From: Kiritimatiellia bacterium
Lineage (GTDB): Bacteria; Verrucomicrobiota; Kiritimatiellia; SLAD01
DNA length: 32,636 nt
Direction: 5' to 3'
NCBI GenBank assembly: GCA_007136425.1
Contig: SLGY01000160.1
Coordinates: 1-32,636, forward strand
Made by a program: the position numbers and the translations under genes. The notes beneath the pieces are model-generated. The model made no database searches, had not been told where the DNA came from, and saw nothing but the letters and a program-made list of their open reading frames with translations. Below are positions 17,861-22,747 of this stretch, piece by piece. Every line of letters begins with the position of its first letter. The first letter of the stretch is position 1.

Positions 17861-19056
17861 TGCCCACGACGAAACGAGATTATTATGAAGTGCTCGGTGT
17901 GGGGCGCCAGGCGGATGCGGACGAGATCAAGAAGGCGTACCGCAAGCTGGCCGTCAAGTATCACCCCGACAAGAACGCCGGTAACGTGGAGGCGGAGGAG
18001 AAGTTCAAGGAGATCTCCGAAGCCTACGAAGTCCTCAGCGATCCGCAAAAACGGCAGAAATACGATCAGTTCGGCCATCAGGCCTTCGCCCCCGGTTCGG
18101 GCGGCGGCGCGGGGTTCGGCGGCGGTTTCGAGGGCATCGATCTGGAAGAGGCCTTGCGCACGTTTATGGGGGCTTTCGGCGGTGGCGGCGGTGCCCGCGG
18201 CGGAAGCATCTTCGACGATTTCTTCGGCGGCGGCCGGGCCGAACGCGGCGCCGGGAATCGCGGGTCCGACCTGCGTTTCGATCTGGAAATCGACTTCGAG
18301 GAAGCCGTGTTCGGGTCGGAACGCGATATCACGTTCCCCGTCATGGACGCATGTGGCGATTGTAAAGGGACCGGCTCGAAATCGGGAACGAAACGGCAGT
18401 CCTGTCCCCGGTGTAAAGGGGCCGGCCAGACGGTGTCGTCCAACGGCTTCTTTCATGTCCGGCAGGCCTGCGAGATGTGCGGCGGGGCGGGCGAAGTCGT
18501 TCGTGATCCCTGCCGTTCCTGTCGCGGTACGGGCCGCGCGCGGTCCCGGCGCACCATTACCCTCAAGATCCCGGCGGGCGTTGAGACCGGCTCGCGCTTG
18601 CGCGTGGCCGGCAAAGGCGAACAGGGCGTCCGCGGCGGATCGCCCGGCGATCTTTACGTCGTGCTGCACGTCAAGGAACACGAGATCTTCAAGCGCCGCG
18701 ATGAAGACATCTTCATTCAAGTGCCGGTGCCGTATCCCACCGCGGCGCTCGGCGGCGAGATCGAGGTGCCGACCATCCACGGATACGCCAAACTCAAGAT
18801 CCCGCCCGGCACCGAAAGCGGCAAACGATTTCGCCTGCGCGGGCGCGGGCTGAAAGGCGTCGGCAGTTTCGGCAACGGCGACCAGCACGTCGTCGTCATG
18901 GTCGAGACCCCCGAACGGCTCAGCGGGAAACAGAAGAAGGCGCTGAACGAATTCGCCGCGTTGCTCGATGAATCGAATCATCCCGCGTCCGCTAAACTGC
19001 GGAAGAAAGCCGGCGAATTCTATCGGCGCCGCGACACGTTGCAGGACGCGCAATGA
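17860..19056 (+). CDS. dnaJ: Chaperone protein DnaJ
   Basis: A 398-residue type-I DnaJ. The J domain (5-70) has the HPD motif at 35-37 that stimulates DnaK. A Gly/Phe-rich linker (about 71-135) and the zinc centre follow, with four CxxCxGxG repeats: C165/C168, C182/C185, C204/C207 and C218/C221. Two substrate-binding beta domains end the protein. All parts are intact and the length is slightly above average. The gene overlaps grpE by one base and rsmE by four bases (ATGA). DnaK is not in the window. Confidence 0.97.
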
Positions 19057-19769
19057 GCACGCGGTGCCATGTCGTCGACGGTTGGCGCGACGGCGAAAGC
19101 ATCACCTTGGATCGCGACACCTCCCGCCATCTCGCGCGCGTATTGCGCGTGCGACCCGGTGACGGCGTCGAACTCTTCGACGGTCTCGGCGGTGTGGCGG
19201 ATGCCGAGGTGTGCGAGGTGACCAAAGACGCCGTGCGCGTGAACCCGGCGCGGCGGCGCGAAACGGCGCGACCGAAACCGTTCACGACGCTGGTCCAAGC
19301 GTTGATCCGACCGCAACCGATGGATTATCTACTGCGCAAGGCGACGGAGCTGGGGGTGTCGGCCGTGCAGCCGGTGTTGACCGAGCGATGTGTGGCGCGG
19401 ACTCGCGAACGGCCGGCGCGCTGGCGTAAAACGATTATTTCCGCAGCCGAACAGTGCGGAGCCAATTGGCTGCCCGAGATCCGGCCCGTGCGGTCCTGGA
19501 CGGAGATCCTCGCCGGATGGGCGGAAGATGAGCGCGTGTTATTGTGCGCATTGTCGGAGTCTGCGCGTCCTCTGAAAGAAGTCTTGCGCCGCGAACCGGC
19601 GCCGGCGCGCGTGGCCGTGCTTGTCGGGCCGGAAGGGGACCTGACCCCGGCGGAGCGGGACGCGGCGTTGAATTCGGGCGCGATCCCGGTCTCGCTGGGA
19701 TCATTAACGTTACGCGCGGAAACGGCGTCCTTGTACGCGCTATCCGCTCTGCGCTATGAGTTCGGTTGA
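19053..19769 (+). CDS. rsmE: 16S rRNA (uracil1498-N3)-methyltransferase
   Basis: A 238-residue SPOUT-class enzyme that methylates N3 of U1498 in 16S rRNA. An N-terminal PUA-like domain (1-70, [13 protein letters not shown]) is followed by the knotted methyltransferase domain. Signature elements are [13 protein letters not shown] (96-108), SAAEQCGA (130-137), [11 protein letters not shown] (191-201) and the knot motif [17 protein letters not shown] (214-230). In VGPEGDL an aspartate sits where glycine is more usual. The dnaJ-rsmE order, with ATGA overlap here, recurs in many bacteria. Confidence 0.95.
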
Positions 19770-19849: not shown

Positions 19850-20167
19850 ATGAGAATATGGACGCTTAGCGTATGTTTGCTCGCCTTCCTGGCCGTGGGG
19901 GTGGTCGGTTGCGGGACGTTGACGGACGCGTTGAACAGGCGGGCCGCAGCCGATGTATCCGAAGCGGACCTCCGATTGCGCCAGGATGTCTTGAACCGGT
20001 TACGCGATGATGCCGTCACAAGCCTTCACAATATCGGCGTGGAATCCCGTAACGGGATGGTGACGGTGTATGGCTCCGTTCCGGACGACATGACGCGGCG
20101 CCGGGTCTTAAGCGTGGTGCGCGGGACGCCCGGAGTGGCGGGAATCAATGACCGGCTCGCGCGCTGA
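19850..20167 (+). CDS. BON-domain lipoprotein
   Basis: A 105-residue protein with a lipoprotein signal peptide ending VGVVGC (lipidated C21). The mature part is a single BON domain: a helix (DLRLRQDVLNRLRDD) followed by LHNIGVESRNGMVTVYGSVPDDMTRRRVLSVVRGTPGVAGINDRL, quoted here only to name its extent (about 43-103). BON domains occur in OsmY and similar envelope proteins and are thought to bind lipids or peptidoglycan. GGAGA about ten bases upstream is the ribosome-binding site. It is followed within about 13 bases by another lipoprotein gene, so they are likely one operon. Confidence 0.88.
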   Translation: MRIWTLSVCLLAFLAVGVVGCGTLTDALNRRAAADVSEADLRLRQDVLNRLRDDAVTSLHNIGVESRNGMVTVYGSVPDDMTRRRVLSVVRGTPGVAGINDRLAR

Positions 20168-20180
20168 TTGTCCGGACCGC

Positions 20181-21347
20181 ATGCGTAGACGTATTCTTCC
20201 GTCTTGCGTCTTGCTCGTGTTCCTTCTCGGCGCAGCCGGTTGCGCGACCCGCGGGCCGGCGCCCGACTTCCAACGCGCTATTCGCGCGGCGGATGAGGAC
20301 GGCCATTATCTGGCAGACCTGCCCCTTTATCCCGTTTCGGACAGCGAAGGTCATGCGGCGGTGCTCGCCATGGTGACCGACTATTGGGAGCCGCCCGGCC
20401 TGCTTGCGCGCCTGCGGCCGCGCTGGCGCGCGCATCGCGTGGGTGCGATCCGGCCGGACGACGCGTTGGAAACGTATCTCGTTGAGCGCGGATTATGGGG
20501 CTATTGGGGCGTCGGCGAGATGGATACGCTAAAGGAACGATTGCGCGCGGATGCGCCGGTGTTGGTGTCCATGCAGGAACGACCGTTCGACCGTACTGAT
20601 TTGGCGCTGGCATTGGTGGCGGGCTACGACGACGCGCGCGAGCGCATCCTTTTATACGGGCTAGCCGACGAACCGGTTCAAAAGTCGTACGACGATTTTC
20701 TCAGGTCCTGGCGTTATGCGCAGGAGCGATACCTGGTGGTTAGTCCCCCGGAACGCGCGGACTGGCGCTTGACGGTGTCGGAACGGATCAGTCGCGGCAG
20801 ACATCATATGGCGGTGCAACGTTATGCCGATGCAGAACCGGATTTCGTCGCCGCCCTGGAAATGGATCCGGGCGTTGCGCGTCATTACGTGGAGCTGGCC
20901 GACGCGCACGCCTTGCGGGAACAGTACGGGGAAGCCGAGCCGTTGTATCGGGCGGCGTTGCGATTGGACGATACGGACGCGCGCGCGATGAATAATCTGG
21001 CGCATGTGCTCATCTATTCCGACGGTGATTTGGCGGAGGCGAAGCGTTGGGCGCGGCGCGCGACGGCGCTGGAGCCGGATAACCCGCGCCTGCTGCACAC
21101 GTTGGGCGTGGCCTTGTATCGCGCGGACGCGTATCGGGAAGCGGCGCGCATGTTGGAACGCGCACGCACCCGGGCCATGAACATGGACGGCGCTACACAA
21201 GCCGAGATCGCGATGAAACTCGTACAGGTATATCACGATGACGACTTATGGCATCTGGCGCGACAAACCTTGGCGGACGCATTGGCCCACGATCCGGATG
21301 TGGACGTGCCGGAACCGCTGCGCATTCATTTACGCGATGAACCATGA
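20181..21347 (+). CDS. Lipoprotein with inactive C39-like domain and TPRs
   Basis: A 388-residue lipoprotein; the signal peptide ends FLLGAAGC (lipidated C21), which is why I start at 20181 and not at the in-frame ATG at 20148. Residues about 43-190 read like a C39 (papain-like) peptidase domain of the PA2778 kind: LADLPLYPV, then AAVLAMVTDYWEPP, then PVLVSM, ALVAGYDDARERILLYG and a closing RYLVVSPP. The catalytic cysteine expected before AAVLAMV is replaced (SDSEGH), and the histidine expected before VAGYD is missing (DLALALVAGYD), so the domain looks catalytically dead. TPR helices follow (about 200-375). It may be a peptide- or protein-binding envelope scaffold. Confidence 0.75.
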   Translation: MRRRILPSCVLLVFLLGAAGCATRGPAPDFQRAIRAADEDGHYLADLPLYPVSDSEGHAAVLAMVTDYWEPPGLLARLRPRWRAHRVGAIRPDDALETYLVERGLWGYWGVGEMDTLKERLRADAPVLVSMQERPFDRTDLALALVAGYDDARERILLYGLADEPVQKSYDDFLRSWRYAQERYLVVSPPERADWRLTVSERISRGRHHMAVQRYADAEPDFVAALEMDPGVARHYVELADAHALREQYGEAEPLYRAALRLDDTDARAMNNLAHVLIYSDGDLAEAKRWARRATALEPDNPRLLHTLGVALYRADAYREAARMLERARTRAMNMDGATQAEIAMKLVQVYHDDDLWHLARQTLADALAHDPDVDVPEPLRIHLRDEP

Positions 21348-21367
21348 GCGCGATAAAGGGGGGAGTC

Positions 21368-21412
21368 AGTGTTCAGTATTCAGTATTCAGTGTTCAGTTT
21401 TCAGTGTTCAGT
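21368..21412 (+). repeat. Heptamer tandem array, copy A
   Basis: Six consecutive 7-base units read AGTGTTC, AGTATTC, AGTATTC, AGTGTTC, AGTTTTC, AGTGTTC, then AGT. It begins 20 bases after the stop of the TPR lipoprotein. The inverted counterpart lies at 25507-25555, and 22 bases (ggggagtcagtgttcagtattc) are identical between the two. Confidence 0.9.
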
Positions 21413-21517
21413 GAGTGAGAGCTGAGAGCCAAAGCGGTAGGTGCGCGGGGGACTTCATACCGGCTATTTTAGGCGCGCGCTTGACGATAACGAAGCGATA
21501 AACTATGAACGTATCTT

Positions 21518-22747
21518 ATGGCTGGACGTGATGATATTTACAAACAGGAAGGACGCAGGCTGCCTCGCCGGCGCAAGGCGTCCTCGTCCCAATCCGATTC
21601 GCGTCAAAATGCGTCGGGAAGCAACGCCGGCGCGCAGGGATTCTACGGAGCCCGGGAACGGCGCTCGACGATCGGCGATGACTTGAGCGGGCGCGGTAAA
21701 GGCGTATCCGCCCAACCTGCGGGGCGCGCGCCGACACCCCGGCGTCGTCGGCGTTCTGCCCGGTCGAAGGGGGGCAATAAGTGGGTATTGATTCTGCTGG
21801 TCGCGATCCTCGTGGTGTATATGGGCATATTGGGCGCCAGCCTGTATCGTTCCTTTTTCGGAGAAGAGGAAGAGGAACCGACGCCGGTTCTTGCCGAAGA
21901 GGAGCCGGAAGAAACGCCGGAGGCCGCGCCGACAGATCCCGTACCCGACGATCCGGCGGAGATCGCGGCGCAGGACGCGGAACGTACGGGCGAGTATATC
22001 GATGCATGGCGTTCCGCGTTGAATGCCATGTATCGGGCGGAAACGACGCTCGCACGGGGCGGAGAAACCGAACGCGCCATGGAACGCCTGGAAGAGGCGA
22101 TCGACGAGGCGCCGCACGTCGTGGACTTGCAATTGGCGTTGGCGGATATGTATGTGGAACAACAACGCTACGCCGAGGCGCGGGACCTGTATGTGCGCGT
22201 GTTGCAGGCGGATCCGATGCGGGAAGGCGTGCGCCTGAAATGGGCCCGCACCCTGCACGCCCTGCGCCATCATGAGGCGGCGTTGCAGGTGGCGCTGTGG
22301 ATTCTTGACGACGACGGATTTCTGGAGGAACCGAATCAGATCGCCGCGATGGCCTATCTCGCCATGGACCGAATAGAAGCGGCAATCCCACATTTGCGGC
22401 GTCAGGTGGCCGTAGACCGTGACAACATCGTGGCACAGAACAACCTGGCGGTGGCCTACTCCCGACTGGGCGAGTACGGGCGGGCGGTGACACTGTTCCG
22501 GGACGTGCTGGAAGCCGATCCGGGCAACGCCATCACCTACTATAACCTGGCCGTATGCCATGCGCAGCAGGGGGACGCCGACGAAGCGGTGGAAACGCTG
22601 CAGGATGCGGCGGAACGGTTCGGGTTATCGTTCGTCAGGGCTTGGTTCAGGAGCGAGGATTTTGATCCGATTCGCGACTCGACCGTGTTTCAAGAACTGG
22701 AATCGCTGAACCAATTGCCCGGCGATAACGAACGCGCGCAACGCTGA
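21518..22747 (+). CDS. Membrane-anchored TPR protein
   Basis: A 409-residue protein of three parts. A long basic, low-complexity cytoplasmic N-terminus (1-87, rich in Arg, Ser, Gly) comes first. Then one transmembrane helix (about 88-110, KWVLILLVAILVVYMGILGA) is followed by an acidic linker full of E, P and D (115-155). At least five TPR-like helix pairs fill 165-390, for example AIPHLRRQVAVDRDNIVAQ and the GNAITYYNLAVCHAQQGDAD unit. TPRs bind proteins, so a periplasmic scaffold is likely by orientation (positive-inside). The family is not recognised. It is separated from the preceding lipoprotein by a repeat array, so co-transcription is uncertain. Confidence 0.82.
   Translation: MAGRDDIYKQEGRRLPRRRKASSSQSDSRQNASGSNAGAQGFYGARERRSTIGDDLSGRGKGVSAQPAGRAPTPRRRRRSARSKGGNKWVLILLVAILVVYMGILGASLYRSFFGEEEEEPTPVLAEEEPEETPEAAPTDPVPDDPAEIAAQDAERTGEYIDAWRSALNAMYRAETTLARGGETERAMERLEEAIDEAPHVVDLQLALADMYVEQQRYAEARDLYVRVLQADPMREGVRLKWARTLHALRHHEAALQVALWILDDDGFLEEPNQIAAMAYLAMDRIEAAIPHLRRQVAVDRDNIVAQNNLAVAYSRLGEYGRAVTLFRDVLEADPGNAITYYNLAVCHAQQGDADEAVETLQDAAERFGLSFVRAWFRSEDFDPIRDSTVFQELESLNQLPGDNERAQR

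Follow-up and report, generated by a model that had tools for sequence, protein, structure and literature searches.

The window analysed here, the whole 32,636-nucleotide stretch of contig SLGY01000160.1 from a Kiritimatiellia bacterium, carries the gene for a lipoprotein in which a degenerate C39-like peptidase domain, missing both catalytic residues, is followed by tetratricopeptide repeats (TPRs) and which is encoded directly after a BON-domain lipoprotein. Our main reading, to which we give a probability of roughly 55%, is that the product serves as a scaffold in the cell envelope of Kiritimatiellae, a pseudopeptidase held by a lipid anchor and acting jointly with the BON lipoprotein. The invariant pairing with BON suggests that a peptide cutter has been given a new role in the envelope, either structural or in binding. 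Inactive C39 domains are already known from HlyB-type transporters, where they serve substrate recognition. If the reading is true, a free-standing, lipid-anchored, TPR-fused inactive C39 domain would represent a second route from the C39 peptidase fold to a binding module, and a lineage-specific protein would thereby be paired with BON lipoproteins, whose outer-membrane partners are of current interest.

The gene and its surroundings

The relevant features of the window are as follows.

19053..19769, + strand: rsmE-type RNA methyltransferase; a neighbour only in the window's GTDB family (loci L002-L004, L065) and outside the module
19850..20167, + strand: BON-domain lipoprotein, 105 aa (PF04972, E 4e-10; lipobox; adjacent in 35/35 genomes)
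20181..21347, + strand: C39-like pseudopeptidase and TPR lipoprotein, 388 aa (sequence, profile matches, alignment, Foldseek)
20181..20243, + strand: signal peptide and lipobox LLGAAG-C21 (sequence; a lipobox-type Cys in most homologues)
20265..20771, + strand: degenerate C39 domain, residues about 29-197 (NF033920 on the domain alone, HHalign, Foldseek, class-wide profile A5)
20349..20351, + strand: codon of G57, at the catalytic Cys position of intact C39 (alignment A4; C in 0/24)
20604..20606, + strand: codon of A142, at the catalytic His position of intact C39 (alignment A4; H in 0/24, Arg in 11)
20766..21308, + strand: TPR region, residues about 196-376 (Pfam TPR matches; helical hairpins in the AlphaFold2 model)
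21518..22747, + strand: TPR protein with one predicted transmembrane segment (residues about 90-110), a basic N-terminal tail and a DDIY motif; a frequent third gene

An in-frame upstream ATG at 20148 is a possible alternative start for the 388-residue frame. The protein consists of an N-terminal domain of about 170 residues ahead of the C-terminal TPRs and contains no ABC or transmembrane region. Both the lipid anchor and the TPRs of the preliminary description hold, given the lipobox and a Pfam match to TPR_2 with an E value of 4.9e-13. The source genome (2.6 Mb in 226 contigs) is 89% complete, and the publicly named close relatives are Kiritimatiellae MAGs, chiefly CSSed assemblies (sediment, by their label).

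A C39 fold

The preliminary description placed a C39-like domain ahead of the TPRs and named the Pfam profile Peptidase_C39_2 (PF13529) as a way to check it. That profile has no match whatever in the window protein, but the more specific NCBIfam profile NF033920 (PA2778 family cysteine peptidase) does match, with 71 bits for the whole protein. The N-terminal part without the TPRs still matches by itself (31.4 bits, E 1.2e-7), and thus, the TPRs are not the source of the match. In a profile-profile comparison with HHalign, one profile built on 18 domains of the window's clade and another built on six intact C39 domains align over 152 columns with a probability of 99.2% (E 1.9e-19); a second clade (see below) matches the intact profile with 97.0% (E 8.9e-11). 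Since twenty column-shuffled controls give at most 0.5%, the resemblance to C39 is not due to chance.

AlphaFold2 models the whole mature protein with a pLDDT of 87.6, the TPR region forming helical hairpins with block pLDDT values mostly of 90-98. Foldseek with this full-length model found TPR proteins only, and the C39-like domain was therefore modelled alone (pLDDT 76). The top PDB matches of the domain model are the C39 domains of PCAT1 (7n87, E 7.8e-6) and ComA (3k8u, 5.2e-5). Lower down come further papain-like enzymes and C39 structures, with 3erv, 6mpz, and the C39-like domain (CLD) of HlyB (3zua, E 3.8e-3) among them. PCAT1 and ComA are active C39 peptidases that form the catalytic domains of ABC transporters and cleave double-Gly leaders, whereas the window protein has neither the catalytic residues nor a transporter. 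A phmmer search of the domain against PDB sequences yielded nothing useful, and an alignment-profile search returned TPR matches only. NF033920 on the domain alone, HHalign, and Foldseek all agree, and together profiles and predicted structure establish that the N-terminal domain has the C39 tertiary fold, as the preliminary description had supposed.

Missing catalytic residues

The domain was also described as catalytically dead, and the alignment with intact relatives bears this out. The Cys column is occupied in the window protein by G57 (...SDSEGHAAVLAM...) and the His column by A142 (...LALALVAGYD...). Among 24 aligned C39-like/TPR homologues, which were gathered because they resemble the window protein or match NF033920 and not because they lack these residues, none has Cys in the first column or His in the second; Arg, present in 11, is the commonest substitute for His. 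All six intact relatives in the same alignment have both residues, as does a seventh (L163). In the distant members L138-L142, both residues are absent at the two motifs by inspection. Judged from sequence, loss of the catalytic Cys and His is systematic across the class.

It is highly improbable that the protein is still an active enzyme whose residues lie outside the classical C39 site. In the second clade, a His and a Cys stand four residues apart near the end of the domain (HAALC, 5/6 each), and 10 of 18 domains in the window's clade have a Cys before a PP motif, features that could be taken for a relocated site. However, the window protein has Ser at the latter position, the outlying second-clade members L138, L141, and L142 lack the His/Cys pair, and the spacing of that pair does not match C39 geometry. 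Moreover, the window's clade contains no His column conserved in at least 70% of its members, no Cys, Ser, or Thr column that gives a consistent substitute nucleophile, and no conserved replacement pair elsewhere in the fold. The Cys of L008 (SCGEQAP) might be taken for a nucleophile that has survived, but it was rejected: it is one column off, the sister locus L049 has His there, and L008 has no catalytic His.

Distribution and conservation

Of the 288 genomes sampled from the class, 35 carry the dead C39-like/TPR form, which falls into two clades, with support in the domain tree of 96/99 and 100/100. Clade I, which includes the window, was found with profile A5 in 19 genomes from GTDB families f1, f10, f12, f21, and f36; clade II accounts for 16, all in f26. 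The architecture, C39 followed by C-terminal TPRs, is kept across at least six GTDB families. AU tests of one versus two catalytic losses in the two clades give p values of 0.065 (domain) and 0.47 (TPRs). In one clade II genome (G111), the gene is duplicated in tandem (L074, 2409-3614 and 3878-5137), and both copies are dead. At E values of 1e-16 to 5e-7, the weaker A5 matches come from shorter frames that carry no fused TPR region, and all five such relatives that were read (L035, L036, L037, L039, L057) have intact motifs. A search of viral contigs found no relatives of the window protein. Four Thiobacillus loci (L069-L072) were set aside: they matched through the TPRs only, and the two that were read are PrsT-like rather than C39.

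Could the C39-like domain be just a decaying remnant, a spacer or fold scaffold, with the lipid anchor and TPRs doing the work? The former active site is variable in clade I, and the dead domain changes faster than the TPRs: in the comparison of the window with L002, dN is 0.30 and dS 1.12 for the domain, versus 0.18 and 1.46 for the TPRs, with dS near saturation. Both observations are equally compatible with relaxed constraint and with a new ligand. On the other hand, the full length of the fold is preserved in 24/24 homologues, and the window copy models confidently. W, LW, P, W, and P positions are invariant in 18/18 clade I domains, and the clade II domain has acquired strongly conserved new residues (RADRA, MDRNAFR). 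The dN/dS ratio is well below 1, which places the dead domain, by this sequence measure, under purifying selection. We consider the relic unlikely, although the faster change of the domain leaves it a minor share of the probability.

Relation to PA2778 and intact C39 proteins

PA2778-type proteins (NF033920) share with the window protein the lipoprotein nature, the N-terminal C39 domain, and the C-terminal TPRs. The window protein differs in having no catalytic Cys (QCGP motif), no His before the VxGYD strand, 71 bits against a curated cut-off of 150, and a BON neighbour instead of PA2779. Because the score lies below the cut-off, the Cys and His are missing, and PA2779 is not alongside, classifying the protein among the PA2778 peptidases would be wrong; rather, its sequence points to a C39-fold homologue derived from a PA2778-like kind of protein. 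None of the 288 class genomes has an NF033920 score above 150 bits. PA2779 (NF033919) occurs in six of them, all outside the set of 35 that carry the dead form; it lies beside the intact PA2778-type enzymes of Eleftheria (L097) and of G006 (L036).

Derivation from a protease, also part of the preliminary description, gains support from intact C39-TPR lipoproteins with the same architecture, both in the phylum (L163) and elsewhere (L097). Among 388 genomes sampled from the phylum, L163 is the only relative to come from outside the class (in G294, E 8.9e-25); it has intact motifs (QCGPA...GGHYHVVHG) and scores 113 bits to NF033920. The intact C39-TPR architecture is the likely ancestral form. 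Overall, loss of catalysis goes with the absence of PA2779 and the presence of BON. However, a profile search detected no recognisable PA2779 alongside L163, and the short intact C39 proteins that neighbour FGE-like genes have no PA2779 beside them either, so an intact site does not always imply PA2779.

At L036 in G006 (1064-2455, - strand), three consecutive genes encode PA2779, an intact C39 protein, and, separately, a TPR lipoprotein, and thus the fused PA2778 architecture is split there. The PA2779 protein at this locus has GG ahead of its hydrophobic tail, and for this reason PA2779 may be a substrate of PA2778. The contrast between the dead form and intact PA2778/PA2779 makes this idea easy to test; a literature search found no paper on the function of PA2778-type peptidases. 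At L035, L037, L039, and L057, an intact C39 gene without TPRs directly follows an FGE-like gene (SUMF1-like, by eye), a second recurrent pairing that is seen in several Kiritimatiellae.

Pseudoenzymes often regulate active paralogues, and the dead protein could in principle regulate or titrate an active C39 peptidase of the same cell, an arrangement for which dead and intact forms coexist in three genomes (G111, G116, G089). We nevertheless judge it improbable. The window's own genome, at its 89% completeness, contains no PF13529 match, profile A5 finds only the window gene in it, and most of the 35 genomes lack an intact-type C39 match in the A5 search.

The BON partner and a proposed envelope complex

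The BON lipoprotein that had been noted beside the window gene is indeed there, with both a BON domain and a lipobox. By coordinates, a BON gene lies directly upstream of the dead C39-like/TPR gene in 35/35 genomes, the two domain matches lying 76-322 nt apart (median 125), and nearly all of the 25 BON partner proteins that were read and aligned have the lipobox Cys. This constant pairing and the lack of PA2779, which go beyond the preliminary description, make up the strongest part of the picture. The outer neighbours differ by family: rsmE in f1, sodA in f12, a PLD-like gene in f21, and RNase HIII in f26. Since the BON partner is constant while these outer genes change, the pair moves as a unit. 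The PLD-like gene, upstream of the pair in L081, L082, and L086 (f21), appears by eye to encode a secreted protein. A further 19 genomes have the BON lipoprotein with no detected C39-like gene, indicating that BON does not depend on the C39-like gene. Gene adjacency alone does not mean that the products interact.

Two known systems bear on what such a pair might do. The C39-like domain of HlyB (PDB 3ZUA) is likewise an inactive C39 fold; it has no peptidase activity, yet binds unfolded HlyA (PMC11026475). The HlyB domain lies in the cytoplasm, joined to an ABC transporter, whereas the window domain belongs to a secreted lipoprotein in which TPRs follow it, and its link is with BON. Lipoproteins with BON domains, DolP among them, act at the outer membrane; phospholipid binding and support of BamA folding have been reported (PMC7806268, PMC8081527). 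The partner here is, like DolP and BonA (PMC7806268, PMC8081527, PMC8406262), a BON-domain lipoprotein. DolP is described as a dual-BON protein, whereas the present partner has one BON domain in about 105 residues and is coupled to a pseudo-C39/TPR lipoprotein.

In the scaffold reading, the window protein would descend from a PA2778-like C39-TPR lipoprotein peptidase that lost both cleavage and its PA2779 partner on the way to a pseudopeptidase. By analogy with HlyB, the C39 fold may now act as a non-cleaving binder of a peptide or tail, or of the BON lipoprotein, and the TPRs may hold further partners. The lipid would anchor the protein to a membrane, probably the outer one, where it may join its BON partner, and often also the TPR membrane protein, in an envelope complex that probably lies on the periplasmic side. 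These statements on what the protein binds, where it sits, and what it does are inferences, whereas the loss of the catalytic residues and the pairing of the genes are shown. A fuller version is tentative and somewhat doubtful: that a secreted C39-TPR peptidase lost catalysis, took on a BON lipoprotein in place of PA2779, and turned into an obligate binding subunit of this Kiritimatiellae envelope complex (BON lipoprotein, pseudo-C39/TPR lipoprotein, and often TPR membrane protein), linking outer-membrane lipid or BON sites to periplasmic TPR partners.

The TPR membrane protein

Downstream of the pseudo-C39 gene, at many loci as in the window, lies a gene for a TPR transmembrane protein, in keeping with the earlier mention of another TPR membrane protein nearby. 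The same gene order is found at L002, L004, L005, L007, L008, L010, L011, L044, and L073. In the window, the two genes are separated in part by short tandem repeats of the type CAGTGTT/CAGTATT (21366-21421). The single hydrophobic segment follows the basic N-terminal tail, a sequence arrangement that probably gives a cytosolic tail and periplasmic TPRs.

In 4 of 7 BON-only loci that were read, the BON gene is followed directly by the TPR membrane gene, with no C39-like gene in between (L147, L148, L157, and L158, in GTDB families f15, f7, f17, and f5, respectively). The module therefore exists in two- and three-gene forms. Within the basic tail, before the transmembrane segment, 10 of the 14 homologues examined have a short IY motif (DIY, NIY, SIY, or GIY): the window protein (21518-22747) and those of L002, L004, L008, L010, L044, L073, L147, L157, and L158. 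Its position in the sequence would possibly suit a cytosolic docking motif.
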